A program made the position numbers and the translations under genes. The notes below the pieces were generated by a model. That model worked only from the letters and a program-made list of their open reading frames with translations. It made no database searches and was not told the DNA's origin. Source: Deltaproteobacteria bacterium (GTDB lineage: Bacteria; Desulfobacterota; Desulfobacteria; Desulfobacterales; Desulfosarcinaceae). From it: DNA of 64,000 nt. The stretch lies in contig JAHLLR010000016.1 in NCBI GenBank assembly GCA_020444075.1, positions 1 to 64,000 of the forward strand, given 5' to 3'. Below, piece after piece: positions 4,538 through 17,874 of the stretch (position 1 is its first letter; every line of letters begins with the position of its first letter).

Positions 4538-5377
4538 ATGGTCATCACGTGCTGGGGCTCCAGAGGGTCCATACCCGTCTCCGGAAAAGAGTACATCAAG
4601 TACGGCGGTGATACCACATGCATAGACATCCGGACCCACAGCGACGACATCATTATCGTGGACGCCGGCACCGGCATCAGGCGGCTGGGCAATCACCTCA
4701 TCGATCAGGACCGCTACCGTTACAACTTTCTGCTCACCCACGGCCACTGGGACCACCTCATGGGGTTTCCCTTCTTCAAGCCCCTGTTTCTCAGCCGGAC
4801 CGAAATTCACATGCACCGGGCACCGTTTCACAAAAAATTCATGGAAAGCATGTTCTCCAAAGTCATGGCACCGCCTAATTTTCCGGTACGATACTCGGAC
4901 CTCAAGGCCAAGATCGTCTGGGAAGAGGGCCACCCGGCCGAGTTTCAGATCGGGTCGGCAACCGTGGTGCCCACCCCCATCAGCCACCCCAATACCGGCA
5001 AGGGCTACAAGTTCATTGAAAACGGGAAAGCCTTTGTCTTCCTCACCGACAATGAATTGGGATTCGTTCATCCCGGTGGACTTCCTTTTCAGAAATACGT
5101 TGATTTCTGCACCGGGGCGGACTTGTTGATTCACGACGGTGAGTACACCGAGACCGAGTACCGCAAACTCGCCGAATGGGGGCACTCTTCCTACACCGAC
5201 GCCTTGCGGCTGGCGTTTGCGGCAGGGGTCGGGCGCCTGGGCCTGTTCCACCTGAACCAGGAACGCACCGATGACCAGATGGATGCGATCGTGGACCACT
5301 GCAGACAGATCATCGCCAAAGAAGGCCGGACCCTGGAATGCTTCGCCGTAGGCCGGGATATGCGGTTTACGTTATGA
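4538..5377 (+). CDS. MBL-fold metallo-hydrolase (PhnP/cyclic phosphodiesterase-like)
   Basis: 279 residues with GSRGSIPVSG at the N-terminus, a GGDTTC segment, the metal-binding LTHGHWDHLMGFPFF and a later HDGEYTETEY with the metal-bridging Asp. This order resembles the RNase Z/PhnP-like branch of metallo-beta-lactamase proteins that hydrolyse phosphodiesters or cyclic nucleotides. It carries no signal peptide, so it is cytoplasmic. The substrate cannot be deduced. It is in the same transcription direction as prmA and cobB with short gaps (25 and 71 bp). Confidence 0.8.
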   Translation: MVITCWGSRGSIPVSGKEYIKYGGDTTCIDIRTHSDDIIIVDAGTGIRRLGNHLIDQDRYRYNFLLTHGHWDHLMGFPFFKPLFLSRTEIHMHRAPFHKKFMESMFSKVMAPPNFPVRYSDLKAKIVWEEGHPAEFQIGSATVVPTPISHPNTGKGYKFIENGKAFVFLTDNELGFVHPGGLPFQKYVDFCTGADLLIHDGEYTETEYRKLAEWGHSSYTDALRLAFAAGVGRLGLFHLNQERTDDQMDAIVDHCRQIIAKEGRTLECFAVGRDMRFTL

Positions 5378-5448
5378 AGTGTTAAGCCCATTCAAAAAAA
5401 CTTCTCTTTAAACTCACGACTTAATACTTAGCACCGAATAAACTCACC

Positions 5449-6204
5449 ATGATCCAACCGATCGAGCATGCCGCCGAGATTCTGAGCACCGCCAGACGTG
5501 CCGTGGCCCTGACCGGCGCCGGCATCTCCGTGGAAAGCGGTATCCCGCCCTTTCGGGGCAAAGGCGGCCTGTGGGAAAAGATCGACCCCATGAAAGTCGC
5601 CCATATCGATGCTTTTCTGAAAGATCCGGAGACGGTGTGGAAGCTGCTGATCAAGGACATGAAACGCTTACTGGACACGGCCCGGCCCAATCCCGGGCAT
5701 TCCGGTCTGGCCGATCTGGAACGGCTCGGCATCCTTAAAACCGTCATTACCCAGAATGTGGACGGCTTGCATCAGATGGCGGGAAACAGCGACGTCATTG
5801 AATTTCATGGTAATTTTGCCTGGCAATCCTGCCTGGACTGCAACCGGAGCATCGAAACCTCGCAGGTGGATCTGACAACCCTACCGCCGCGATGCAGCTG
5901 CGGCGGCATCCTTCGACCCGACTGTGTCTTTTTCGGGGAATTGATCCCCCAAAAAGCGTTAATCCGCTCCCAGCAGGTGTCGGCGGCCTGCGATGTGATG
6001 CTGGTGATCGGCACGTCGGCCATGGTTCAGCCGGCAGCCACCATGCCCTTCATTGCCAAGGACAACGGCGCCTTTATCATCGAAATCAACCCCGAAGCCA
6101 CGCCGCTTACCTCGCGTATCAGCAACCTGCCCCTGCTGGGCGATGCCGGCAGCATCATGCCCCGCCTGCTGAAGGCGCTCCGGCGGCGCCTGGCAACCCC
6201 CTGA
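5449..6204 (+). CDS. cobB: NAD-dependent protein deacylase, sirtuin (Sir2/CobB)
   Basis: 251 residues, normal for bacterial sirtuins. Signatures in order: GAGISVESGIPPFRG (NAD loop), TQNVDGLHQMAG (catalytic region), FHGNF with the catalytic His, four zinc cysteines as CxxC and CxC (CLDCN, CSCGG), GTSAMVQPAA and the ribose-binding INPE. It removes acetyl or longer acyl groups from lysines using NAD+. With the AcuC-type deacetylase at 1974 this makes two mechanistically different deacetylases within 4 kb. No Tyr/Arg pair typical of desuccinylases was assigned, so acyl preference is left open. Confidence 0.92.
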   Translation: MIQPIEHAAEILSTARRAVALTGAGISVESGIPPFRGKGGLWEKIDPMKVAHIDAFLKDPETVWKLLIKDMKRLLDTARPNPGHSGLADLERLGILKTVITQNVDGLHQMAGNSDVIEFHGNFAWQSCLDCNRSIETSQVDLTTLPPRCSCGGILRPDCVFFGELIPQKALIRSQQVSAACDVMLVIGTSAMVQPAATMPFIAKDNGAFIIEINPEATPLTSRISNLPLLGDAGSIMPRLLKALRRRLATP

Positions 6205-6241
6205 CCGCATCCAGCCGACTCATGAAAAGGCAGGACAATCC

Positions 6242-7801
6242 ATGACACGAACGCAGGACCATCGCTGGGTTGAAACCGTCACCCTCTCACCGCCTTCACT
6301 GGGGGACAACACCGCCGATGCCGACCGGCTGGAGGCAGCGTTGAAAAAGGCGCTGGGCACCCGGACCGTGCACCTGGACCTGAATCTGTTGAAACAGCTG
6401 CCCGAACGGCTGCGGGAATGGAATTACCGGGCCACCGCCGTGATGTTCAAAGATTGCAGCGGCACCGGCATCCTGGTCCACCTGGCCGCGCCTGACGCTA
6501 TCGATGCCCTGTGCGGCCTGGCCGTGGATCTTGGCACCACCCGGGTGGTGCTGCGAATCATCGATCTTTGCACCGGTCAGCATCGGGGTGAATCGGTTTT
6601 CGACAACCCCCAGCTCAGCGTGGGCCCCGATGTGCTGGCCCGCATCCACCACGTGGAAAAAACCGGCGGCCTGAGCCAGCTCAACCGCCTCATTATCGAC
6701 GGCATCAACCATGAGCTGCAGGACCTGTGCAACCGGTGTGGCATTTCTCCCGAGAATATCCACCTGATGTCAGTTGCCGGCAACACGGCCATGACCCACC
6801 TGCTGCTGGGCCTCAATCCCCGCTGGATGATCCGGGAGCCCTATATCCCGGCGGTGAACCGGCCCGGCGTGGTCACGGCAGTCGAACTGGGCATCCACGT
6901 TCATCCCACCGCACGGGTGCTGGTCTTTCCCAATGTGGGCAGCTACTTCGGCGGCGACCTGATTGCGGGCATCCTTTACTGCGACCTGGACCAGCGGGAG
7001 GAGACGGCCATCCTGGTGGATGTGGGCACCAATGCGGAAGTGGTCCTGGGAAACCGCAACTGGATGATGGCCTGCGCCGGTGCGGCCGGGCCTGCGCTGG
7101 AAGGAGGCGTGACCCGCATGGGCACCACGGCCGGCCCGGGAGTCATCGACCGCATTACCATCGATCCGGTTTCCATGGCGCTTGACATCCACACCATCGG
7201 GGATCAACCGCCCCGCGGCATCTGCGGCTCCGGCGTTATCGACCTGGCGGCGGCCCTGTTCCGGTCGGGGATGATCGACATCCGGGGAAAACTGCTGCCC
7301 GAGCGCTGCGGGGATCGTTTTCACCTGAAAGACGGGTTGGGACACCTGACCCTCGTGCCCGCCGGCCAGTCGGCCACCGGCGAAGACCTCGGCGTGACCC
7401 AGGCGGACCTGGACAGCCTGGTCCGCTCCAAAGCCGCCATGTACACCATCCTGGAAACGATCACCGGCAGCGTGGGCATGCAGCAGCAGGATCTGGAGAC
7501 CTTTTTCGTGGCCGGCACCTTCGGCGCCTTCATCGATCCCGCATCCGCTATCACCATCGGCATGATCCCGGACCTCCCCCTGGAGCGCTACCACAGTCTG
7601 GGCAACAGCTCCCTGGGCGGCGCCACACGGGTGCTGGAAAATTCCGGGTGCTTCGACCGGGTCAATCAGATCCGCGACGGCATCACCTATCTGGAGTTGA
7701 ACGTCAACCAGGACTTTATGAACCGCTTCTCAGCGGCCAAGTTTCTGCCCCACACCGACATCTCGCGTTTTCCTTCGGTTCGGTGGCCCGCCGACCCTTG
7801 A
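6242..7801 (+). CDS. ASKHA-domain corrinoid activation protein (RACo/DUF4445-like), no ferredoxin domain
   Basis: 519 residues. The N-terminal 95 residues contain the linker-like SPPSLGDNTADADRLEAAL. An ASKHA ATPase core follows with GLAVDLGTT, SVAGNTAMTHL, VDVGTNAEVVLG, CAGAAGPALEGG and GICGSGVIDL, ending in the FVAGTFGAFIDP segment of DUF4445 proteins. Characterised relatives (RACo, RamA) reductively reactivate Co(II) corrinoid methyltransferases with ATP and carry an Fe-S domain. Here the N-terminus has only two cysteines and no plant-type ferredoxin motif, so the electron entry must come from another protein or the role differs. It starts 37 bp after cobB. With CooC at 1122 it hints at C1/Wood-Ljungdahl metabolism. 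Confidence 0.8.
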   Translation: MTRTQDHRWVETVTLSPPSLGDNTADADRLEAALKKALGTRTVHLDLNLLKQLPERLREWNYRATAVMFKDCSGTGILVHLAAPDAIDALCGLAVDLGTTRVVLRIIDLCTGQHRGESVFDNPQLSVGPDVLARIHHVEKTGGLSQLNRLIIDGINHELQDLCNRCGISPENIHLMSVAGNTAMTHLLLGLNPRWMIREPYIPAVNRPGVVTAVELGIHVHPTARVLVFPNVGSYFGGDLIAGILYCDLDQREETAILVDVGTNAEVVLGNRNWMMACAGAAGPALEGGVTRMGTTAGPGVIDRITIDPVSMALDIHTIGDQPPRGICGSGVIDLAAALFRSGMIDIRGKLLPERCGDRFHLKDGLGHLTLVPAGQSATGEDLGVTQADLDSLVRSKAAMYTILETITGSVGMQQQDLETFFVAGTFGAFIDPASAITIGMIPDLPLERYHSLGNSSLGGATRVLENSGCFDRVNQIRDGITYLELNVNQDFMNRFSAAKFLPHTDISRFPSVRWPADP

Positions 7802-8145
7802 CCGCCGGGCAAACCATTGACGGAATGCCGCCCTGCAGGGTTTCATCATGACTGGCGGCATCCGCATGTGTGCCTCCGGGTTCAGTCCCGACGACCTTCC
7901 GGATTGGAAAACCATAGAATCGGCGCCTGTCCACCGGCCTTGCCGGGGAGCATGCAGACCCGACGGCCGATGACCAAAAGCGCCGGTTTTCTCAACCTTT
8001 AAAACGCCAATTTTGTATTCTTTTCAGCATGTTGCTTCCCGCCAAATAAAGCCTTGAAAGGTTTTGTGCATTATGATAGTCGATGTGTTGATTTTTTCTA
8101 CCCACGTGTAAATCACAACCCAACTCCAAAAAGGATCGAGACCAC
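7802..8145. other. Gene-free stretch upstream of the cytochrome/rnf cluster
   Basis: About 340 bases without a convincing coding frame. It holds a small GC hairpin (CCGGC...GCCGG near 7935-7950) and then turns AT-richer from about 8000 to 8110, where the rnf promoter should lie. No promoter with good spacing was found. c-di-GMP (GEMM) and cobalamin riboswitch cores were looked for by eye and not seen. Confidence 0.5.
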
Positions 8146-8592
8146 ATGACGTCGAAGAAACAGTTGCTGTTTGCTTACGGTCTGGCAATCCACCTGTTGC
8201 TTATCGGTATTATCTGTTATGCCGCCTTCCCGGCCAAAGCGCCGGATGAACCCATTCGGATCATGTACCAGACCAATGCGGGAAAAGTCCTTTTTGACCA
8301 CCACACACACACTGCAGCCTCCGGATACGGGGCAACCTGCTTCGACTGCCACCATCATCCCAGCGATGATGACAGCGCGCTGATTGCCTGTGGGGAGTGT
8401 CATCAGGCGCCGGCCGAAGACGGTTCCAAGCCGGAACGCTGTCTGGATTGCCACGATGAGAGCGACATTGAAGATACGGAAATAGTGTCCCGGGCGGACG
8501 CGTTCCACCAGCAGTGCACCGAATGTCACGAGCAGTTTGGCAAAGGCCCGCAGTCCGGCTCGGAAAACTGCTCCAAATGTCACGTCCTCTAA
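8146..8592 (+). CDS. Membrane-anchored pentaheme c-type cytochrome associated with Rnf
   Basis: 148 residues. A basic start and one hydrophobic segment (about residues 6-27) form an uncleaved anchor or signal peptide, so the rest faces the periplasm. Five CxxCH haem sites are present at C65, C82, C99, C124 and C142. Several further histidines (HHTH, HHH) can act as distal ligands, and the spacing resembles class III cytochromes c3, which usually have four haems. It is the first gene before rnfC (74 bp gap) and should exchange electrons with the Rnf complex, probably via RnfG or RnfD, and with periplasmic or quinone pools. Multiheme cytochromes beside rnf are also known in Methanosarcina (MmcA) and some Desulfobacterota. 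Confidence 0.9.
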   Translation: MTSKKQLLFAYGLAIHLLLIGIICYAAFPAKAPDEPIRIMYQTNAGKVLFDHHTHTAASGYGATCFDCHHHPSDDDSALIACGECHQAPAEDGSKPERCLDCHDESDIEDTEIVSRADAFHQQCTECHEQFGKGPQSGSENCSKCHVL

Positions 8593-8666
8593 TCGAGGCA
8601 GGTAGCGTTCATGGATCTGTTTCGACGGTATCATTTATCACCGCGGCCCTAACAAAAGGTTGAGCT

Positions 8667-9950
8667 ATGCGAAAACGATCATTCTTCGGTCTGTCCAAAC
8701 CTTGCTTCCACTACGAACTGGCCACCGGCGCTCTTACCGATCCGACGGCCATCCCGACACCGGAAACGGTTACGGTTTATATCAAGCAGGAACTCAAGCG
8801 AACCAGCAGCAGCCTGAAAGTGGGCACGCCGGTAAAAACCGGGCAGCGCCTGGTGCTCAACGAAGGCGATGACATCTGCGCCATCTCGTCGGTTACCGGA
8901 ACCATCTGTGCCATCGCCCCTTTCCTGGCCGATTACGGTCGGGCATGGACCGCCGTCACCATTAAAACCGAAGGAAGCGACACACCGGATACCGACTTTG
9001 CCGAAGCCAGCCAGGCACCGACCCTGGAAACGCTTAACCGCTATCTGGCCGCCTGTCCCGGCGAACCGGACATCGGCCCGCTGATGGACGAGCGCAATCC
9101 CGTGCACACCATCGTCATCACCGGCGGCAATGCGGACCTTCTCATCGACACCAGTCTGTATGTTCTCAAACAGAGCGCCGAAGCGGTCAATGCGGGCATC
9201 GAAGTTCTCAGGAAAGCCACGGGCATCGAAGAGATCGTTATCGTGGTCCCGGAAGAGAGCGTACAGAACTACTCCGGCCACCTGGACGCCCGGATCCAGT
9301 CGGTTTCCTCCCAATACCCCTATGCTCAGCCGCTCATGATCCTGCACCACCTGACCGGACGGCTGCCCGATGAAAAGGGCATGGCATCCATGGGTATCTA
9401 TTTCATCCGTGCGGAAGCCGTGGCCGCGATCGGTCAGGCTTTCTCGACTGGCCGCCTGCCCGTTGAAAAGACGGTTGCCGTCATCGACAAGCGCGGAATC
9501 AAGCATCTGGCCCGGGCGCGGATGGGTACACCCGTCGGCACGCTGCTCAAAGCTTTTGACGTCCCGATCAACGACAAAGACAAGATTATTTTCGGCGGCC
9601 CCATGACCGGCAACGCCATCTACAGCGAAGACCTTCCCATCGGGCCGGACACAGACGCCATCCTGGTTCAGGACAAAAGCGTCATTCCCCTTTACAGCGA
9701 CTATCCGTGCATCAACTGCGGCGATTGCGTGCGCATCTGCCCGGCCAACGTACCGGTCAACCTGCTCGTCCGCTTTCTGGAAGCCGGACAGTATACCGAA
9801 GGCGCGGACCTGTATGACCTTTACTCGTGCATCGAGTGCGGCCTGTGCAGTTACGTCTGTGTATCGCGCATTCCCATCTATCAGTATATCAAACTGGCAA
9901 AATACGAAATCGGCCGGATCACATCTGCGGAGGAGATGAATGAACAGTAA
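8667..9950 (+). CDS. rnfC: Rnf complex subunit RnfC, lacking the NADH/FMN loop
   Basis: 427 residues. The C-terminus has two [4Fe-4S] motifs at C348/C351/C354/C358 and C388/C391/C394/C398. The RnfC N-terminal barrel (about residues 20-100), the MGTPVGTLL SLBB-like region (285-295) and GGPMTG (310-315) are recognisable. What is missing is the NuoF-like glycine-rich loop (GGAGFPT in other RnfC) and the following AECEPY...D.R segment: the corresponding stretch reads LAACPGEPDIGPLM and ITGGNADLLIDTSLYVL. These elements bind FMN and NADH, so this RnfC probably passes electrons through its clusters only. It overlaps rnfD by 11 bp. Confidence 0.92.
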   Translation: MRKRSFFGLSKPCFHYELATGALTDPTAIPTPETVTVYIKQELKRTSSSLKVGTPVKTGQRLVLNEGDDICAISSVTGTICAIAPFLADYGRAWTAVTIKTEGSDTPDTDFAEASQAPTLETLNRYLAACPGEPDIGPLMDERNPVHTIVITGGNADLLIDTSLYVLKQSAEAVNAGIEVLRKATGIEEIVIVVPEESVQNYSGHLDARIQSVSSQYPYAQPLMILHHLTGRLPDEKGMASMGIYFIRAEAVAAIGQAFSTGRLPVEKTVAVIDKRGIKHLARARMGTPVGTLLKAFDVPINDKDKIIFGGPMTGNAIYSEDLPIGPDTDAILVQDKSVIPLYSDYPCINCGDCVRICPANVPVNLLVRFLEAGQYTEGADLYDLYSCIECGLCSYVCVSRIPIYQYIKLAKYEIGRITSAEEMNEQ

Positions 9951-10902
9951 GAAAACGCTAATTGTATCCCACGCACCGTTCTGGCATGACGGCAGCGGGA
10001 TTCCCGAGCGAAGCTATCACACCATCATCGCCGCCCTTCCCGCAGCAATTGTGGGAATCGCCTTTTACGGCACTCCGGCGCTGGGCGTCATCAGCCTGGC
10101 CATCTCATCGGCGATTCTTTGGGAGCTTCTGCTCAATCGCGCCATGCGGCAGCCTCCTACCATCGGCAACGGCAATGCCGCGCTGGTCGGTCTGTTGCTG
10201 GCCATGGTGCTTCCCGCATCGACTCCCTGGTGGATCGTACTCATCGGGACCTTTCTGGCCATCGTCATCGGCATGCAGATTTTCGGAGGTATCGGCGCCA
10301 ACCCGTTCAACCCGGTAGCCCTGGCGTTTGCCATTCTCATGGTATCCTACAAGAACCACCTGGATTTCGATGCCGGACTGGTCAACTTTACATTGAGCTT
10401 TCCCTCATCGACGGACCCGCTGGCGGCCCTGAAGGCCTTCGGTCCTTCTGCCGTGGAGGGCCTGAATTACATGGACCTGTTTCTGGGAAAACAAGTCGGT
10501 GCCCTGGGCAGCACCTGCGGCCTGGCCCTTGTTCTGGGTGGGCTCTACCTGATCCTTCGTGGTTTTATCCGCTGGGAAATCAGCGTCTCTTTTCTGGCCG
10601 GGGTCTTTGTGACGGCCGCCCTTTTCAACATGGCCGACCCGGCCCGCTTCGCCCCGCCGGCGTTTCACCTGCTCACCGGATTCACCATGATCGGTGCCTT
10701 CTTCCTGGCCACCGAGACCTCCTCCTCACCGGTCAATTTCGTTCCCATGCTCATCTACGGCGCCCTGGGCGGCGTGATGACCGTGCTGATTCGAAACATC
10801 GGAGCCTATGTCGACGGGGTGATCTTCGCAATTCTTCTAATCAATCTGATAAACCCGCTGGTCGACAAGATCAGACCCAAGGCGATTGGAAAGGTAGCGT
10901 AA
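9940..10902 (+). CDS. rnfD: Rnf complex subunit RnfD
   Basis: 320-residue integral membrane protein of the RnfD/NqrB family with about ten hydrophobic segments. The segment FLGKQVGALGSTCGLAL corresponds to the covalent-flavin region, and the Thr that carries FMN in homologues is kept. FLATETSSSPVN matches the later conserved loop. RnfD is part of the membrane core that couples electron flow between ferredoxin and the acceptor to Na+ or H+ transport. It overlaps the end of rnfC and is followed by rnfG after one base, so translation is coupled. Confidence 0.95.
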   Translation: MNSKKTLIVSHAPFWHDGSGIPERSYHTIIAALPAAIVGIAFYGTPALGVISLAISSAILWELLLNRAMRQPPTIGNGNAALVGLLLAMVLPASTPWWIVLIGTFLAIVIGMQIFGGIGANPFNPVALAFAILMVSYKNHLDFDAGLVNFTLSFPSSTDPLAALKAFGPSAVEGLNYMDLFLGKQVGALGSTCGLALVLGGLYLILRGFIRWEISVSFLAGVFVTAALFNMADPARFAPPAFHLLTGFTMIGAFFLATETSSSPVNFVPMLIYGALGGVMTVLIRNIGAYVDGVIFAILLINLINPLVDKIRPKAIGKVA

Positions 10903-10903
10903 T

Positions 10904-11497
10904 ATGGGCGAAATGATAAAAATGGTGGTTGTCCTCACCGTATTGAGCGTCATCTCGGGAGGCGGCCTTTCCTGGTTGAAAGACTTTACCGCGCCAAAAA
11001 TCGAAAATCAGGTGATGAATCTGGTCAAAGGACCGGCCATCCGGCAAATGCTCAAGGATGCCGACAACGATCCTGTGGCGGACCGTTTCAAGATTCAGGA
11101 CGGCGACGTCGAACGCACCATTTTTGTCGGTGTATTCGGCGAGAAACCCGACACGGTCGTAATCGAATCCAGCGCCAATGGTTTTGCAGACAAAGTGGGA
11201 CTGGTGGTGGCAATCAACATGGCCAATGACACCCTTCGCGGTATGGCCGTGACCACGAGCAAGGAAACCCCTGGATTGGGAGCCCGTGCCAAGGATGATC
11301 CCGCCTTTGCCGCCCAGTTCGCCGGCAAGCCGCTGACAATTCCCGTCAAGGTGACTCAGGATGGAGGAACCATCAACGCCCTGAGCGGAGCCACGATCAC
11401 CTCCAGAGGCGTGTGCGTCGGCGTCACCAAGGCCATCGAGACATACAACCACCTGAAGCCGCAGTTGGAAGAAAAAATCAAAAGCATGGGCAAATAA
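10904..11497 (+). CDS. rnfG: Rnf complex subunit RnfG, covalent FMN protein
   Basis: 197 residues with one N-terminal membrane helix (about residues 6-24) and a periplasmic FMN_bind domain. The flavinylation motif SGATITS sits at about residues 160-166; the first Thr carries FMN through a phosphoester bond added by ApbE in characterised members. ETPGLGARA is the second conserved motif of the family. It is a likely docking point for the periplasmic cytochrome encoded at 8146. No apbE gene is in the window. Confidence 0.95.
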   Translation: MGEMIKMVVVLTVLSVISGGGLSWLKDFTAPKIENQVMNLVKGPAIRQMLKDADNDPVADRFKIQDGDVERTIFVGVFGEKPDTVVIESSANGFADKVGLVVAINMANDTLRGMAVTTSKETPGLGARAKDDPAFAAQFAGKPLTIPVKVTQDGGTINALSGATITSRGVCVGVTKAIETYNHLKPQLEEKIKSMGK

Positions 11498-11512
11498 AGG
11501 AGCTTACCACCA

Positions 11513-12136
11513 ATGGCCAAATCACTCGTTGCTGAATTTACCAAAGGCCTCTGGAAAGAGGTTCCGCCATTCAGACTGGTCCTCGGTCTCTGCCCTACCC
11601 TGGGTGTGACCACCTCCATGAAAAACGGCATCGGCATGGGACTGGCTACCACCTTCGTTCTGGTCTGCTCGAACATTCTGGTCGCCCTGCTAAGAAAAGT
11701 GATCCCGTCCAAGGTCCGCATTGCCTGCTTCATCATCATTATCGCCACCTTCGTCATCGTTGTCGAACAGCTCATGCAGGCATATGCCTATACGCTTTTC
11801 ATCGATTTAGGGGTGTTCATCCCACTGATCGTGGTCAACTGCATCGTACTGGGCCGGGCCGAGGCCTTTGCTTCTAAAAACGGAGTCGTTTTTTCCACCG
11901 CAGACGGGCTGGGCATCGGTATCGGTTATACCTGTGCCTTGGCTGTATTGGGTGCCATCCGCGAACTTTTGGGAACCGGCGGACTGAAAGGCGACGTCTT
12001 CGGATTGCTCCCTTACAGCTTCCCGAACCTTTTCGGCGCTTCCTTCGAACCCTTCGGCTTTGCGGTTCAGGCACCGGGGGCCTTCGTCGCTCTGGGCTTG
12101 ATGCTCTGTGCCATGAACCTTATTCCCAGCAAATAG
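11513..12136 (+). CDS. rnfE: Rnf complex subunit RnfE
   Basis: 207-residue polytopic membrane protein with six hydrophobic segments. The conserved GLCPTLGVT and VVNCIVLGRAEAFA motifs hold the cysteines that, together with those of RnfA, coordinate the intramembrane [2Fe-2S] cluster in Rnf/Nqr structures. It lies 15 bp after rnfG and 14 bp before rnfA. A GGAG Shine-Dalgarno precedes the ATG. Confidence 0.96.
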   Translation: MAKSLVAEFTKGLWKEVPPFRLVLGLCPTLGVTTSMKNGIGMGLATTFVLVCSNILVALLRKVIPSKVRIACFIIIIATFVIVVEQLMQAYAYTLFIDLGVFIPLIVVNCIVLGRAEAFASKNGVVFSTADGLGIGIGYTCALAVLGAIRELLGTGGLKGDVFGLLPYSFPNLFGASFEPFGFAVQAPGAFVALGLMLCAMNLIPSK

Positions 12137-12150
12137 TGTAAGGAGTCACC

Positions 12151-12723
12151 ATGGAATATATTGAGCTAATTATTGCCACCATCTTCGTCAACAACATCCT
12201 GCTGGCGCAATTTCTGGGTAACTGCCCGTTCCTGGGTACATCCAAAAAGATGGAAACGGCCGCGGGCATGGGCATGGCAGTCATCTTCGTGCTGGTCATG
12301 GCCGGCGTGATGACCTGGATCATCTACGAATGGCTGCTGGTGCCATATAAATTGGAATTTCTGCGCACCATCGCCTTCATTCTGGTCATCGCCTCGCTGG
12401 TGCAGTTCGTCGAGATGTTTCTTAAAAAAAGTATTCCGGCCCTGTATGCGGGCCTTGGCATCTTCCTGCCCTTGATCACCACCAACTGTGCGGTCTTCGG
12501 TGTCTGCGTGCTCAACATCGACAAGGAATACAACTTCCTTCAGTCGCTGGTGGCCTCCTTCGGCTACGCCGCCGGCTTCGGGCTGGCCCTGGTTCTTTTC
12601 GCCGGTGTGCGTGAACGCATCCTGTTGGCGCGGGTACCCAAACCGTTGCAGGACACGTCCATCGCCCTGGTCACCGCCGGTATTTTTTCCCTGAGTTTTT
12701 ATGCCTTCCGGGGAATGGTATAG
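12151..12723 (+). CDS. rnfA: Rnf complex subunit RnfA
   Basis: 190-residue membrane protein, pseudo-symmetric partner of RnfE. FLGNCPFLGTSKK and TTNCAVFGVCVLN carry the cysteines for the shared intramembrane iron-sulfur centre, and FGYAAGFGLALVLFAGVRERI is the usual C-terminal signature. Six hydrophobic helices are evident. Shine-Dalgarno AAGGAG lies before the ATG at 12151. It precedes rnfB by 20 bp. Confidence 0.96.
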   Translation: MEYIELIIATIFVNNILLAQFLGNCPFLGTSKKMETAAGMGMAVIFVLVMAGVMTWIIYEWLLVPYKLEFLRTIAFILVIASLVQFVEMFLKKSIPALYAGLGIFLPLITTNCAVFGVCVLNIDKEYNFLQSLVASFGYAAGFGLALVLFAGVRERILLARVPKPLQDTSIALVTAGIFSLSFYAFRGMV

Positions 12724-12743
12724 ATTGATTCAAGGAGGTTTTT

Positions 12744-14837
12744 GTGACCATCGCTATCCTCGTTATGCTGGGCATTGGCGCAACCTGCGGCATCATCCTC
12801 AGTGTTGCCTCCAAAGTCTTTTATGTCTATGAAGACCCCCGCATCGGACAGGTCGAGTACTTTCTCGCCGGTGCCAACTGTGGCGGATGCGGATTCGCCG
12901 GATGCAGTGCCGCGGCCGTGGCCATCGTCGAAGGCAAGGCCAAACCGGGCGTCTGCGTAGCCGCAGACACTGAAGCCGCCGTCAATATCGCTGGGGTGAT
13001 GGGCGTCGAACCGGGAACCGCTGAACCGCTCAAGTCCCTCAACCCGTGCAGCGGTGGGGACCGGGCAGAAGACAAATTCATCTACAACGGAGCCATGACC
13101 TGTGCGGCCATGACGGCGCTCTACGGTGGCAAACGGGTTTGTTCCATCGGCTGTCTGGGCATGGGCGACTGCATCCGGTCGTGTCAGTTCGACGCCATCC
13201 ACATGGGCCCCCAGGGATTCCCGGTTATTGACGAATTCAAGTGTGTCGGCTGCGGTGCCTGCGCGACGACCTGCCCGAAGGACCTCCTCTCCGTCAAAAC
13301 CATGTCCCAGCGCCTGCTGGTTTTCAACCAGGAAGATCACGCGCTGGCCCCCTGCCAGCAGACCTGCCCGGCAGAAATCGACATCCCCAAGTACATCCGC
13401 CTGATTAAGGAGGGCGACTACGAGGGAGCCGTCAACACCATCCGCGAGCGCAACCCGCTGCTGCTCTCCTGCGGCCGGGTCTGCCCCCACCCTTGCGAGA
13501 ACCACTGCCGCCGCGAAATCGAAGATGAAGCGGTTTCCATCAACCAGCTCAAACGCTTCGTGGCCGACTACGAAATGAACAGCGGCAGGCGCTTCCCCAT
13601 CGCCTGTGCACCGGATACCGGCAAACGCGTGGCCGTCGTCGGCGGCGGCCCGGCAGGCGTCAGCTGCGCCTATTTTTTGCGACGGCTGGGCCATCATCCC
13701 ACCATATACGAAGCCATGCCCAAACTGGGCGGCATCACACGATATGGTATTCCGGAATACCGGTTGCCCGACAAAGTGCTCGACTGGGAAATCGAGGGCA
13801 TTTTAAACTTGGGCATCGACGTCCGTTACAACACCGTTATCGGCCGGGATTTCACCATCCAATCTCTGCGTGAAGAAGGTTATGAAGCCATTTTCATGGG
13901 CATCGGGGCCTGGAAAGATTACAAACTCGGCATCAAGGGTGAAGATTTGAAGGGTGTCTCCCAGGGCATCAGTTTCCTCTCATCCGTGGCCAGTTCGCCC
14001 GACAAGAAAGTTCCTATCGGGAAACGGGCAGCGGTCGTGGGCGGCGGCAACTCGGCCATCGACTGTGTGCGTACCCTGCTGCGCCTGGGGTGTGAAGAGG
14101 TCTATATCGTCTATCGCCGGACCCGCAAAGAGATGCCCGCCAATGCAGTCGAGATCGAAGCCGCCGAGCATGAAGGCGTCAAATTCCAGTTTCTGGCCGC
14201 CCCCACCCAGGTCATCGATGACGGCCAGGGCAATGTCAAAGGGCTGGAGTACCTGCAGATGAAGCTGGGTGAACCCGACGCCAGCGGCCGTCGTCGCCCG
14301 GTGCCCATCGAGGGGTCGGAGACGGTTCTCGACGTGGACATGGTTATTTCCGCCATCAGCCAGCAACCGGACATCGGCTTCATGGAGGGAGAGCCGGAGA
14401 AGGAGAACATCACCATCACCCGCTGGAACACCTTTGACAACGACCCGGAAACCCTGCAGTGCAGCGTTCCCTATCTGTTTACCGGCGGCGATGTCGCCAC
14501 CGGTCCTTCCCTGGTGGTGGATGCCATCGGCGGCGGACGGCGGGCAGCCCGCGCCATTCATCAGTACATCACCGGCGAGGAGGTCAAAGGAACCCCGAAA
14601 TCCCTGCGCAAGCGGCATATCCCCGAATCCCTGTTCGCAACCGTTCCCGGCGTAGTCAAATCCCCCAGAACACCCATGCCCGAACTGCCCGTGGCCGAAC
14701 GGATCGACTCCATGATCGAGGTGGATCAGGTCATCACTGAAGCCGACGCCAAACACGAATCCAGCCGCTGCCTCAACTGCTGCCGGATTTGCTACAACCC
14801 GGACGTAATCGATCAGAAAGACCAGAACGCCGCCTGA
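12744..14837 (+). CDS. rnfB: RnfB fused to a GltD/NfnB-like FAD-NAD(P)H oxidoreductase module
   Basis: 697 residues, far longer than ordinary RnfB. Residues 1-26 form the membrane anchor; C46/C49/C54/C71 form the RnfB four-Cys cluster domain. Two ferredoxin clusters follow (C133/C137/C143/C147 and C167/C170/C173/C177). From residue 204 the chain continues without a break into a glutamate-synthase small-subunit-like module: Fe-S domain cysteines 204, 208, 243, 247, 251 and 255; FAD loop GGGPAG at 300-305; second dinucleotide loop GGGNSA at 433-438 with [11 protein letters not shown] behind it, whose Arg pair favours NADPH in GltD relatives; and [14 protein letters not shown] at 581-594. A C-terminal CLNCCRIC (676-683) may hold another cluster. 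It likely links ferredoxin, NAD(P)H and the Rnf core. Confidence 0.93.
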
Positions 14838-14863
14838 AATTCTCCTTCCCAAAAACAATCAAC

Positions 14864-14896
14864 GGTGCTGCCTATCCGGCGGCACCGGTTTTTTTT
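14864..14896 (+). terminator. Rho-independent terminator of the rnf operon
   Basis: GGTGCTGCC (14864-14872), loop TATCC, GGCGGCACC (14878-14886), two G and then eight T. The stem has nine pairs with one G-T. It lies 26 bp after the rnfB stop. The rest of the stretch to 15165 shows only a GC hairpin near 15119-15134 on the side of the J-domain gene and no coding frame. Confidence 0.92.
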
Positions 14897-15165
14897 CCCC
14901 GTTCGTTGCCCACTGCCGACGTTAGCGCAAAATGCATAGCTGCCGGGCCCCACGGCCATCACTTCGCCTTCCTGGGGTTTTTCTTTGGCGGTGTCGGGGA
15001 TAATGATTCCCCCGGCCGTCTTGGCCTCTTTTCCACACGTTTTACGAGCACCCTGTCATTCAATGGTCTGATTTTTATATTTTCCCTCCTTATTTTCTGA
15101 TTTGCTCGCCCCACCCTTTCGTGGGGGGTCCGTCAACGGTCGGTTTCTCTAATTTTGATTCAATG

Positions 15166-15546
15166 TCAGTCGACATCTCTGTGAGTAAAATTATCCCACA
15201 ACCAATCGAAGATCTCGTCAAAGAATGGTGAAAACGTTCCAAAGGGACGAACGGGAAAAATTCCTCCCCTATCGAAAAACTTGTCCTCAGGAATCAGGGG
15301 TTCGGGTTTGGACGTGGCCTCTGGAGCCCTTCTAACCCGCACGTTCAAAAGAGATTTTTCATAGGCCTTTCTTCTGGCAGGGTTTCCTAAAACGGAATAG
15401 GCTTCCTGGATTTGTCGAAACGGTTCACTGCCGCCCCCGTAATGATCCGGGTGAAACGCTTTGGCCAATCGACGATAGGCCGAATGCACTTCATCGGGTG
15501 TTGCCTCCGATGTCACCTCGAGAATAGTGAAGTAGCTTTTCGCCAT
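15166..15546 (-). CDS. J-domain protein (DnaJ-like co-chaperone)
   Basis: 126 residues. The J domain fills residues 4-65 with the essential HPD tripeptide (AFHPDHYGGG) and QEAYSVLGNPARRKAYE. There is no Gly/Phe-rich region, zinc-finger domain or C-terminal substrate-binding domain, so this is a class III J protein that would stimulate an Hsp70 such as the DnaK at 30106 for a special client. The remaining 60 residues have no known motif. An AGGAGG Shine-Dalgarno precedes the ATG. Its neighbours are small heat-shock genes, which supports a proteostasis role. Confidence 0.88.
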   Translation of the reverse strand: MAKSYFTILEVTSEATPDEVHSAYRRLAKAFHPDHYGGGSEPFRQIQEAYSVLGNPARRKAYEKSLLNVRVRRAPEATSKPEPLIPEDKFFDRGGIFPVRPFGTFSPFFDEIFDWLWDNFTHRDVD

Positions 15547-15784
15547 ACGAAACCTCCTATGCTAATTCATAGAGCGGGGGCGAGGATTGGAAAGGCCCAA
15601 ATTCACCAAATCGGCAATCAAAGCGGTACCGGCACACATCACCGTAGACGCAGGTGTACAGGGACTGGCAACCGTTCTCTTTAGGAAGGAAATTCACGCC
15701 TGTTCGACCGCTGTTGCAAGAGGTGTAAAGGGGAAACGAGTTCCTGGAGTGTGTTTTCCGCAGGTTTGCACTTGTTGTTCACCG

Positions 15785-16408
15785 TTACCAGTCATCCTGT
15801 TGCAAGGATTCAATCGGGAAATTGGCTATTCGTTTGCCTTTGTTGACAAGTGTTTCAATGTCGGCGAAGGCTTTTGCATATGATCGCATCACCGCTTGGA
15901 ACGATTGGTAAAGCGAATCCTCCTTTCCCACCAGTCGCCTGATTTCATGCATAAGCGGTTTCCCCTGGTTGAAATGTTTCTTGATTTTGGCCAATGCATT
16001 CTCACGCTTGCCTTGTCGCCTGCGCTCTTTTTCGAAAACAGGCAGCAGGCGGTGTATCAACCGTTCAACGATGTCGTCCAGCGATGTGGAAGACTGTTCG
16101 GCCGCTGCCTTCAGTGCAGCCAGGGATTTTTGGCTGAGCATCAATGTTTTTCGAACGCGTTTGGCCTTGTCAAAACGTCCGGGTCCTGACGCTCTGGTAA
16201 TCGCATGCAGTGCATTCACATCTTCCATCAGATAGTCGAACAACGATTTCTGCTTGATACCCAGTTGAGTGGACAGGATGCTGAGGACCGATATCACTTC
16301 CGGTCGCAGCCGAAACGTGGCCTTTACCGATTTTTTCCCCAGCAGATCCTCAAAATTGTTTGATTGTAATGGTGCGCCGTTCCTGTCTTCAAATTTTGCT
16401 TCGTTCAT
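15785..16408 (-). CDS. Unrecognised protein with two ribbon-helix-helix-like segments, putative DNA-binding regulator
   Basis: 207 residues, no family recognised. Residues about 28-68 (KATFRLRPEVISVLSILSTQ...LFDYLMEDV) and 88-122 (VRKTLMLSQKSLAALKAAA...IVERLIHRL) each look like a beta strand followed by two helices, the arrangement of ribbon-helix-helix DNA-binding proteins. The rest is basic and helical. Its promoter region holds an inverted repeat (16427-16461) that could be its own operator. It is transcribed away from three Hsp20 genes, so it is a candidate regulator of that operon. The DNA-binding role is inferred from pattern only. Confidence 0.6.
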   Translation of the reverse strand: MNEAKFEDRNGAPLQSNNFEDLLGKKSVKATFRLRPEVISVLSILSTQLGIKQKSLFDYLMEDVNALHAITRASGPGRFDKAKRVRKTLMLSQKSLAALKAAAEQSSTSLDDIVERLIHRLLPVFEKERRRQGKRENALAKIKKHFNQGKPLMHEIRRLVGKEDSLYQSFQAVMRSYAKAFADIETLVNKGKRIANFPIESLQQDDW

Positions 16409-16426
16409 CAGATCCGCCCCTGAATT

Positions 16427-16461
16427 ATATTACTAACTATAAATAGTAATTTTAGTAATAT
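16427..16461. promoter_or_regulatory. Inverted/direct repeat cluster, putative operator
   Basis: ATATTACTAA (16427-16436) and TTAGTAATAT (16452-16461) are perfect inverted repeats. Inside, the heptamer TAGTAAT occurs at 16444-16450 and again at 16453-16459, nine bases apart, with its complement ATTACTA at 16429-16435. It lies 19 bp before the start of the minus-strand ribbon-helix-helix-like gene, in an AT-rich gene-free stretch (16409-16767). Short repeated half-sites of this kind are typical operators of such regulators. Confidence 0.55.
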
Positions 16462-16695
16462 AAATGAATAAAGCAGATTTTTGCATTTTCAAGATTTAAA
16501 GACGCCTACCGACAAGCAAATTTTACCATATTATTATAGTTGGCAAGAGGTATCGTGCACTTTTTTTTAGCCAGCCTCACATAACGCATCCTTAATAATG
16601 GGCACTCCATTTCCTTGTTTCCAGAGGTCTCAATTAGATTAAAGATATACAATATCAATTGGGTGAAATTTTTTTTGGAATATGACGTATCCTCC

Positions 16696-16723
16696 TTGAC
16701 AGTCTTTTATTATACATTACTAT
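16696..16723 (+). promoter_or_regulatory. Candidate promoter of the hsp20 operon
   Basis: TTGACA (16696-16701) and TACTAT (16718-16723) are 16 bases apart, 44 bp before the first Hsp20 start. The -10 element overlaps ATTACTATT (16716-16724), the exact complement of AATAGTAAT in the operator cluster at 16442-16450, so the same regulator could act on both promoters. Confidence 0.5.
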
Positions 16724-16767
16724 TTGACTAAAAAATTTTTAATAATTGTTAATAAAGGAGGAGCGCC

Positions 16768-17334
16768 ATGGACATGAAAAAGTGGATACCGTGGAACTGG
16801 TTCAAAAAGGAAGAAGAGGAGGCCGGCAAGGCAGTGCCAATTAAGCGGCCGTTGGCACGGACTCAGAACCAAGATCTCAGTGGATCATTAGCCCGGTTTC
16901 ATCAAGACATCGACCGCCTTTTCGACCATGCCTTTCGTGGGTTCGACCTTGCACCGTTTAGTTTCTATCGGCCGCAACTGCCGGCTATGAACGATGGGAT
17001 GCTCAAACCGACCTTGGATTTGAGTGCCACCGACAAAGCCTACACCATTGCAGTTGAGGTGCCCGGTGTGGACGAAAAGGATGTCAAAGTGGAGCTCGTC
17101 AACGATACCCTGACCATTCGGGGCGAAAAGAAGCATGAAAAGGAGGATAACGGAAAAAATTACTATCGCATGGAGCGCAGTTACGGCGCGTTTCAACGAG
17201 TACTGTCGCTACCCGATGATGCCGACCAGGAGGGGGTAGCAGCGATCTTTAAAAATGGCGTATTGTCGGTCACCATTCCCAGGATGGCCGAGCAAAAGGC
17301 CAATGTGCGGCAAATCGAAGTGAAAAGTGCTTGA
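16768..17334 (+). CDS. Hsp20/alpha-crystallin small heat-shock protein (first copy)
   Basis: 188 residues. The N-terminal 80 residues are variable and include a charged KKEEEEAGK segment and an aromatic FYRPQLPAM. The alpha-crystallin domain (about 85-175) has LDLSATDKAYTIAVEVPGV, the TIRGEKK strand and FQRVLSLP; the GVLSVTIPR motif corresponds to the conserved GxL of the family. It should form oligomers holding unfolded proteins for Hsp70. AAGGAGG precedes the ATG. First of three tandem Hsp20 genes in one operon. Confidence 0.93.
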   Translation: MDMKKWIPWNWFKKEEEEAGKAVPIKRPLARTQNQDLSGSLARFHQDIDRLFDHAFRGFDLAPFSFYRPQLPAMNDGMLKPTLDLSATDKAYTIAVEVPGVDEKDVKVELVNDTLTIRGEKKHEKEDNGKNYYRMERSYGAFQRVLSLPDDADQEGVAAIFKNGVLSVTIPRMAEQKANVRQIEVKSA

Positions 17335-17412
17335 TCAACGATACTTCATTCGTTCAATGGGCACGATCCCATTTTTGAAAACCATCACTATCAATAGAAG
17401 GAGAAATGAGCC

Positions 17413-17874
17413 ATGTATGCAAGAAGACTGTTCGATTTCCCGTCAATGGGCTGGCAGTATCCATTTAACGGTCTGGAACGCATGTCCCGCCAGATGGATC
17501 GGCTGACACAGGCCGTAATGGGTAGACCGGGGATGCATTGGCTAACGGCGAGGGTATTTCCAGCGGTCAATCTCACCGAGGACAAAGACAAGTACTATGT
17601 CCGCGCCGAGCTCCCGGGTATCAAGGCAGACGCGCTAAATATACAGGTTGACGGCAGAAACCTGGCGATTTCGGGCGAGCGCACGATTCCGTCCGAGGGT
17701 GAGAACATTCGGTATCATCGGAAGGAGCGTGAAGCCGGAAAATTCTCTCGGGTAATCGGCCTGCCCGGTGATATCGATGCGAGCCATGTTAAGGCAAAAA
17801 TGGTCAATGGCATGTTGATGGTCACCATTGACAAATCGGAGGCATCCAAACCGAAACAGATAACCGTCAATTGA
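17413..17874 (+). CDS. Hsp20/alpha-crystallin small heat-shock protein (second copy)
   Basis: 153 residues. A short N-terminal arm (MYARRLFDFPSMGW) leads into an alpha-crystallin domain from about residue 48, with VRAELPGI, AISGERTI, FSRVIGLPGDID and the conserved GMLMVTI. It is shorter and clearly diverged from the first copy, so this is an old duplication and not a recent one. Shine-Dalgarno AGAAGGAG precedes the ATG. The gap to the first copy is 78 bp and to the third copy 29 bp. Confidence 0.93.
   Translation: MYARRLFDFPSMGWQYPFNGLERMSRQMDRLTQAVMGRPGMHWLTARVFPAVNLTEDKDKYYVRAELPGIKADALNIQVDGRNLAISGERTIPSEGENIRYHRKEREAGKFSRVIGLPGDIDASHVKAKMVNGMLMVTIDKSEASKPKQITVN

Follow-up and report, generated by a model that had tools for sequence, protein, structure and literature searches.

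Motifs for flavin binding are missing from both RnfC and RnfD in a largely cytochrome-associated Rnf clade of Desulfobacterota

In schemes of sulfate reducer metabolism, the Rnf complex is commonly shown as a pump transferring electrons from ferredoxin to NAD+. In the canonical route, electrons pass from ferredoxin via RnfB, RnfA/E, the FMN of RnfG, the FMN of RnfD, and riboflavin to the clusters of RnfC, then to the FMN of RnfC, and finally to NAD+ (PMC9588780), and a 2025 review describes the cofactor set of the membrane core as strictly conserved (PMC12174285). A distinct type is known from Desulfobacula toluolica Tol2, where, as cited from the genome paper of this strain, a large RnfB of ~700 aa has NAD sites and RnfC is without the NADH-oxidoreductase and ligand-binding domains (PMC5109826). 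Desulfococcus multivorans, with a repertoire similar to that of Desulfobacterium autotrophicum, has the same type (“Rnf2”) in addition to a canonical Rnf1 (PMC5109826), and Rnf2 belongs to the core genome of Desulfobacteraceae (PMC11887813). In Desulfovibrio, the rnfCDGEABF genes are found with a decahaem cytochrome (PMC4841214). Similarly by description, the archaeal Rnf of Methanosarcina acetivorans is linked to the cytochrome MmcA and reported to work without NAD(P) (PMC4023990, PMC12174285), and cytochrome exchange has been proposed for it (PMC4023990).

Here we consider an Rnf operon from the window, that is, the whole analyzed stretch of 64,000 nucleotides from a member of the Desulfosarcinaceae; among named relatives, Desulfosarcina alkanivorans is the nearest (85% identity of RnfC). 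The gene order is cyt c-rnfC-D-G-E-A-B, i.e., a cytochrome gene followed by six rnf genes, all on the forward strand. The former (8146..8592) encodes a membrane-anchored c3-type multihaem cytochrome with five CxxCH motifs (PF02085, 46.8 bits) and lies directly upstream of rnfC, a position conserved at loop-less rnfC loci. RnfC (8667..9950, 427 aa) and RnfD (9940..10902) are followed by RnfG (10904..11497), which keeps the covalent-FMN motif SGATIT, aligned with Thr164 of 7zc6_G, and by RnfE (11513..12136) and RnfA (12151..12723), both with the conserved metal-site Cys. The last gene (12744..14837, GTG start, 697 codons) encodes an RnfB-GltD fusion consisting of the RnfB Fe-S part (residues 1–195) and a GltD/NfnA-like FAD/NAD(P) module (about 200–615) with intact FAD and NADP-type motifs, the latter starting with GGGNSAIDC (residues 431–466, 14034..14141). 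The NCBIfam subfamily cut-offs are passed by RnfD, RnfG, RnfE, and RnfA, while RnfC and RnfB are recognizable but score below them. The Rfam scan of positions 5000–17500 yielded zero RNA elements. A gene for a RACo/AcsV-like corrinoid activation protein (6242–7801) is located just upstream of the operon.

The complete rnfCDGEAB set, two [4Fe-4S] motifs of RnfC, and the covalent FMN site of RnfG identify the system as Rnf, and the FMN/NADH site of RnfC and the covalent FMN site of RnfD are absent. Compared to the canonical complexes from Acetobacterium woodii (9ERI), Clostridium tetanomorphum (7ZC6), and Azotobacter vinelandii (8AHX), it has the same six subunits, core fold, RnfA/E metal motifs, and RnfG FMN motif, whereas these two sites are lost and the cytochrome and the GltD module are added. 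The ~700-aa RnfB with an NAD(P) site and RnfC without an NADH site make the operon indistinguishable from Rnf2/Tol2-type systems, and thus this part of the finding is already known, whereas the loss in RnfD and the wider clade considered below do not feature in the descriptions of that type (PMC5109826, PMC11887813). Like D. multivorans, the studied genome also has a second, canonical Rnf; it lies on contig C52, its RnfC has every motif, its RnfB is not fused, and the FMN motif of its RnfD is intact. The Desulfovibrio Rnf shares with the window the upstream cytochrome and the clade on the trees of core subunits, and the sampled loci of this type have lost the RnfC loop and the RnfD FMN motif as well; in contrast to the window, their RnfB is plain (about 300 aa), and a nucleotide site is recognized in neither RnfB nor RnfC. 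As the operon includes a gene for a multihaem cytochrome c, it is a candidate cytochrome-linked system. NqrA of Na+-NQR is an RnfC homologue that has lost the nucleotide and flavin site (PMC4014512), but also the Fe-S clusters retained by the window RnfC. The C-terminal module of RnfB is close to the NfnA/GltD family (9N5U, 9BOV, 5JCA; E down to 1e-128), but is joined to the RnfB Fe-S part.

According to the alignment of the window RnfC with 8ahx_C, 7zc6_C, 9eri_C, and the canonical RnfC of the same genome (L059), all three FMN/NADH motifs of the solved structures are absent. The FMN-phosphate loop is deleted, with NRYLAACPGEPDIGPLM left of IVGxGGAxFPTxxK (residues 124–140, 9036..9086), ITGGNADLLIDTSLY replaces NGxECEPYLTxDxR (residues 151–165, 9117..9161), and YPYAQPLM replaces YPQGxEKQL (about residues 216–224, 9312..9335). 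The respective positions are conserved in 88–100% of canonical RnfCs vs. mostly 0–18% in the loop-less clade; given this low conservation and the same loss in relatives, the loss of motifs in the window RnfC is not due to chance. The original prediction, which had named the first two stretches, is supported here by the alignment with RnfCs of known structure, by relatives, and by the drop of the PF01512 (NuoF domain) score to 18 bits from 172 bits in the canonical RnfC of the same genome; the third motif is an addition. The [4Fe-4S] motifs had been expected to be intact, and both CxxCxxCxxxC patterns are indeed present, namely, CINCGDCVRICP (residues 348–358, 9708..9743) and CIECGLCSYVC (residues 388–398, 9828..9860). 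The SLBB-like part had been considered intact as well, which agrees with the fold in the AlphaFold model (pLDDT 88.6) but not with the Pfam scan of the window RnfC, where no SLBB match was seen and RnfC_N scored 20.3 at a cut-off of 25.6. The model matches whole RnfC structures (VIA Z 31–33 over 402–406 residues, Foldseek TM 0.77–0.80), other matches being full NqrA chains (Z 25–27) and NuoF-type chains (Z ~17), and thus the RnfC fold is predicted to be kept. We also considered the window RnfC as a fragment or a pseudogene and rejected this, as it is full-length, confidently modeled, and conserved in relatives. Hence, judging by the motifs, the window RnfC probably retains the Fe-S clusters only.

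To compare the remaining subunits, columns conserved in canonical Rnf were matched to those of the loop-less clade, subunit by subunit. Almost every such position is kept in RnfA, RnfE, and RnfG, including the FMN motif of the latter, whereas the positions lost from RnfC and RnfD are clustered. One of them is the Thr of RnfD to which FMN is covalently bound (Thr153 in C. tetanomorphum, PMC9588780). The motif DxxSxAT is found in 111 of 117 canonical RnfDs under the strict pattern (of the remaining six, four keep Thr and two are truncated) and in none of the 93 RnfDs of the clade. In the window, SFPSSTDPLAALK replaces DxxSxATPLxxLK (RnfD residues 153–165, 10396..10434), so that Asp159 is aligned with Thr153; Thr is present one residue earlier and may be modified with FMN, though most relatives are without it. 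Moreover, the FMN-ring contact Glu185 is present in 111/117 canonical RnfDs vs. 4/93 in the clade, and Arg130, found in 93/117 canonical RnfDs, is not among the six commonest residues at this position of the clade. The riboflavin/Na+ acid Asp248, on the contrary, stays D or E in 92 of 93 clade members (Glu259 in the window). Taken together with the loss in RnfC, this means that the sites of both return-leg flavins are gone in the clade. No earlier report of the RnfD loss was found in the literature searched, which includes part of the Desulfovibrio literature; the one description of a missing RnfD-type site concerns a different Nqr/Rnf-like system, composed of two subunits (PMC10979944). Thus, as far as searched, both the loss in RnfD and its strict restriction to the clade seem not to have been reported before.

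In order to see how the loop loss is distributed, we collected loci from 297 genomes of the phylum (using the window RnfC as a query), 119 genomes of the Desulfovibrio-type family (using RnfC of a relative), and 80 named loci from all bacteria. The decahaem gene order and the named locus L209 served to recognize the Desulfovibrio-type family; its label is based on the gene order, this one named contig, and the NCBIfam model RnfG_DVU2794, whose cut-off the window RnfG passes. The set of 231 classified rnfC loci, based on mechanical gene calls and biased by the search for similarity to loop-less RnfCs, comprises 126 loop-bearing and 105 loop-less ones, and both Fe-S motifs were found in all but one of the 121 RnfCs checked. 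Neither fused RnfB nor an upstream cytochrome occurs in any of the 126 loop-bearing loci. Among the loop-less loci, RnfB in cis is fused in 30, plain in 22, and absent from the fetched stretch, in many cases a short one, in 53. Conversely, all 30 cis RnfB-GltD fusions and all 74 operon cytochromes in the 231 loci are paired with loop-less RnfC, the upstream cytochrome being present in all 30 Desulfovibrio-type loci, which are the best matches to the loop-less query. Yet at least a dozen operons of the clade have no cytochrome in the locus, and hence strict pairing of the loop loss with the cytochrome was rejected as well: all cytochrome loci are loop-less, but the converse fails.

Plain RnfB beside loop-less RnfC is characteristic of the Desulfovibrio-type loci, and in the near-complete genome G072, also with loop-less RnfC, the sole RnfB found is a plain frame of 271 codons, fused RnfB being absent. 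Some operons without rnfB in cis are accompanied by a fused RnfB elsewhere in the genome (G232, G036, G208, G252, G275); a search for RnfB in G210 gave none convincing. The NAD(P) site of the fused RnfB is degenerate in L048, L049, L053, L055, L058, L065, L094, and L120, whereas the FAD and NADP-type motifs are retained in the window type. In one locus (L047, genome G254), the operon rnfB downstream of rnfA is eroded by an internal deletion: 92 codons of the N-terminus and part of the C-terminus are left, while the region between them is lost and the reading frame is disrupted. The full cyt-rnfCDGEA-RnfB-GltD arrangement was also observed on a contig labeled Neomarinimicrobiota (L260), due to either transfer or mis-binning. 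Two loci (L156, L157) contain a loop-less RnfC-like protein (about 360 aa) beside an RnfB-like gene (409–424 aa), with the membrane subunits absent.

The order of events was reconstructed using trees of RnfD+E+A (184 rows), RnfE+A alone (mixture model, 62 rows), and, separately, RnfB. In both core-subunit trees, the main loop-less loci lie on one side of a single branch with 100% support, and thus the main-clade loop loss, as reconstructed from these alignments, is a single old event. In the RnfE+A tree, two further loop-less groups, L140–L151 (gene order GEAB-CD) and L159/L160, are separate, which yields three changes in total; the RnfD FMN motif is kept in nine out of nine RnfDs of these unrelated groups. 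Five of these loci (L140, L143, L144, L147, L151) combine the GEAB-CD order, loop-less RnfC, an intact RnfD FMN motif, and the absence of a cytochrome from the locus. Loci L159 and L160 (genomes G134 and G232) are Rnf/Nqr-like clusters, where the FMN motifs are missing from the RnfC/NqrA-type subunit, two [4Fe-4S] motifs are present in it, and no RnfB was seen in the locus. In the RnfB tree, all fusions form one group (support 91) adjoining the plain RnfBs of loop-less loci (support 97 for both together). Hence the fusion arose once and was not a prerequisite of the loop loss; in the Desulfovibrio-type lineage, the fusion either was never present or has been replaced.

These data allow us to reconsider the interpretation offered in the original prediction, namely, that the nucleotide site may have moved from RnfC to the fused RnfB, with co-occurrence of the loop loss and the fusion across genomes as the check, and that the loss alone would make RnfC a pure electron wire, as might suit a cytochrome-linked Rnf. 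The survey agrees with co-occurrence in one direction, as each cis fusion accompanies loop-less RnfC and none accompanies a loop-bearing one; however, the obligate co-occurrence is refuted by plain RnfBs in the Desulfovibrio-type loci and in G072. What holds of the relocation is that the RnfC site is gone and RnfB has an intact GltD/NfnA-like module; as a strict pairing, it is rejected given the plain RnfBs, the degenerate modules, and the tree order. The role of RnfC as a pure electron wire is doubtful, since RnfD is without the FMN that would feed it. The link to a cytochrome fares better, as the operon cytochrome is present and 74/74 such genes fit, although some loop-less operons have none in the locus; overall, cytochrome linkage fits the loop loss better than the RnfB fusion does.

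As the outward half of the route is kept and both return FMN sites are lost, the most straightforward interpretation is that electrons are exchanged between RnfG and a periplasmic cytochrome; the joint loss of three RnfC motifs with the Fe-S motifs kept agrees with it. Electrons would enter at RnfB from ferredoxin, or from NAD(P)H via the GltD module, which may serve as an NAD(P)(H) port in the studied genome and in lineages with an intact module. They would be carried across by RnfA/E to the FMN of RnfG and exchanged there with the cytochrome rather than returned via RnfD and RnfC to NAD+. The complex would then act as an ion-coupled ferredoxin/NAD(P)H:cytochrome c oxidoreductase, or could run backwards and drive electrons of the periplasmic cytochrome pool to ferredoxin/NADP+. 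RnfC would be retained as a structural subunit, its clusters serving the riboflavin of RnfD or a cytoplasmic partner. Judging from these motif patterns, we give even chances to the proposal as a whole, i.e., that this Desulfobacterota branch no longer reduces NAD+ at RnfC and exchanges electrons with a periplasmic cytochrome. Its extension to the entire branch including the Desulfovibrio type, as a one-way machine between ferredoxin/NAD(P)H and the cytochrome that has lost both return flavins and is not a ferredoxin:NAD+ oxidoreductase, is plausible, if somewhat tentative. Published data on D. alaskensis point both ways: vesicle assays for ferredoxin-dependent NAD+ reduction were unsuccessful (PMC4841214), which fits the cytochrome exit, but mutants in the decahaem cytochrome showed zero fitness effect on ethanol, formate, and H2 (PMC4841214), which counts against it. 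Moreover, conservation of the RnfC [4Fe-4S] motifs and of the riboflavin-site acid across the clade suggests that the RnfD–RnfC route is still used somehow, FMN could be bound non-covalently, and the conserved clusters and the operons without cytochromes are left unexplained by the cytochrome exit.

Three competing explanations were considered. RnfC might act as a wire between RnfD and the FAD in the GltD module of RnfB; the net reaction would then still be that of a ferredoxin:NAD(P)+ oxidoreductase, but with the nucleotide site located on RnfB. The exclusive pairing of the fusion with loop-less RnfC (30/30), the intact NADP-type motif in the window RnfB, the retained Fe-S motifs, and the RnfB–RnfC contact in the C. 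tetanomorphum structure (PMC9588780) speak for it; however, the shortest RnfB–RnfC carrier distance there is 25 Å (PMC9588780), the loss of FMN from RnfD leaves a gap in the wire, and the loop is lost also beside plain RnfBs and decayed GltD modules, so we consider this scheme unlikely. The same RnfD gap weakens the proposal that a separate cytoplasmic partner, such as ferredoxin, an Hdr/DsrC-type, or an NAD(P)-linked protein, takes electrons from the RnfC clusters in place of FMN. The near invariance of these clusters across the clade and the loci without cytochromes could be accommodated in this way, but an unsystematic inspection of the genes flanking the operons revealed no conserved partner, and we regard such a partner as rather unlikely. 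Finally, the system could be an ordinary Rnf with diverged pockets, whose RnfC and RnfD bind FMN through residues other than the canonical ones and which continues to reduce NAD+. The RnfC fold is kept, and some plain-RnfB members of the clade (L064, L070, L076) retain parts of the motifs, such as EP of ECEP and the loop lysine; on the other hand, in the window the loop is deleted outright and all three motifs are lost with the modeled fold intact, the covalent Thr motif of RnfD is lost in 93/93, and the ring contacts, in nearly all, making this explanation improbable.

If the flavin sites of both RnfD and RnfC are indeed absent, the ferredoxin:NAD+ drawing would be wrong for most of the sulfate reducers sampled, and the unsuccessful D. 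alaskensis vesicle assays would fit as well. The loss in RnfD makes the function of Rnf in sulfate reducers directly testable, and the canonical and loop-less complexes in one genome provide a natural comparison.

Outside the operon, the studied genome encodes a second RnfB-GltD fusion, an orphan of 684 aa whose NAD(P) site is degenerate (contig C150, L191:7986–11952, reverse strand). Its gene immediately follows that of a NuoF-like protein and is itself followed by an rseC-like gene; the NuoF-like protein (632 aa) has PF01512 and an N-terminal 2Fe-2S domain, and this neighbor recurs in L192, L172, L182, and L183. The orphan fusion and the NuoF-like protein together resemble an enzyme of the Nfn/Stn type anchored by RnfB.
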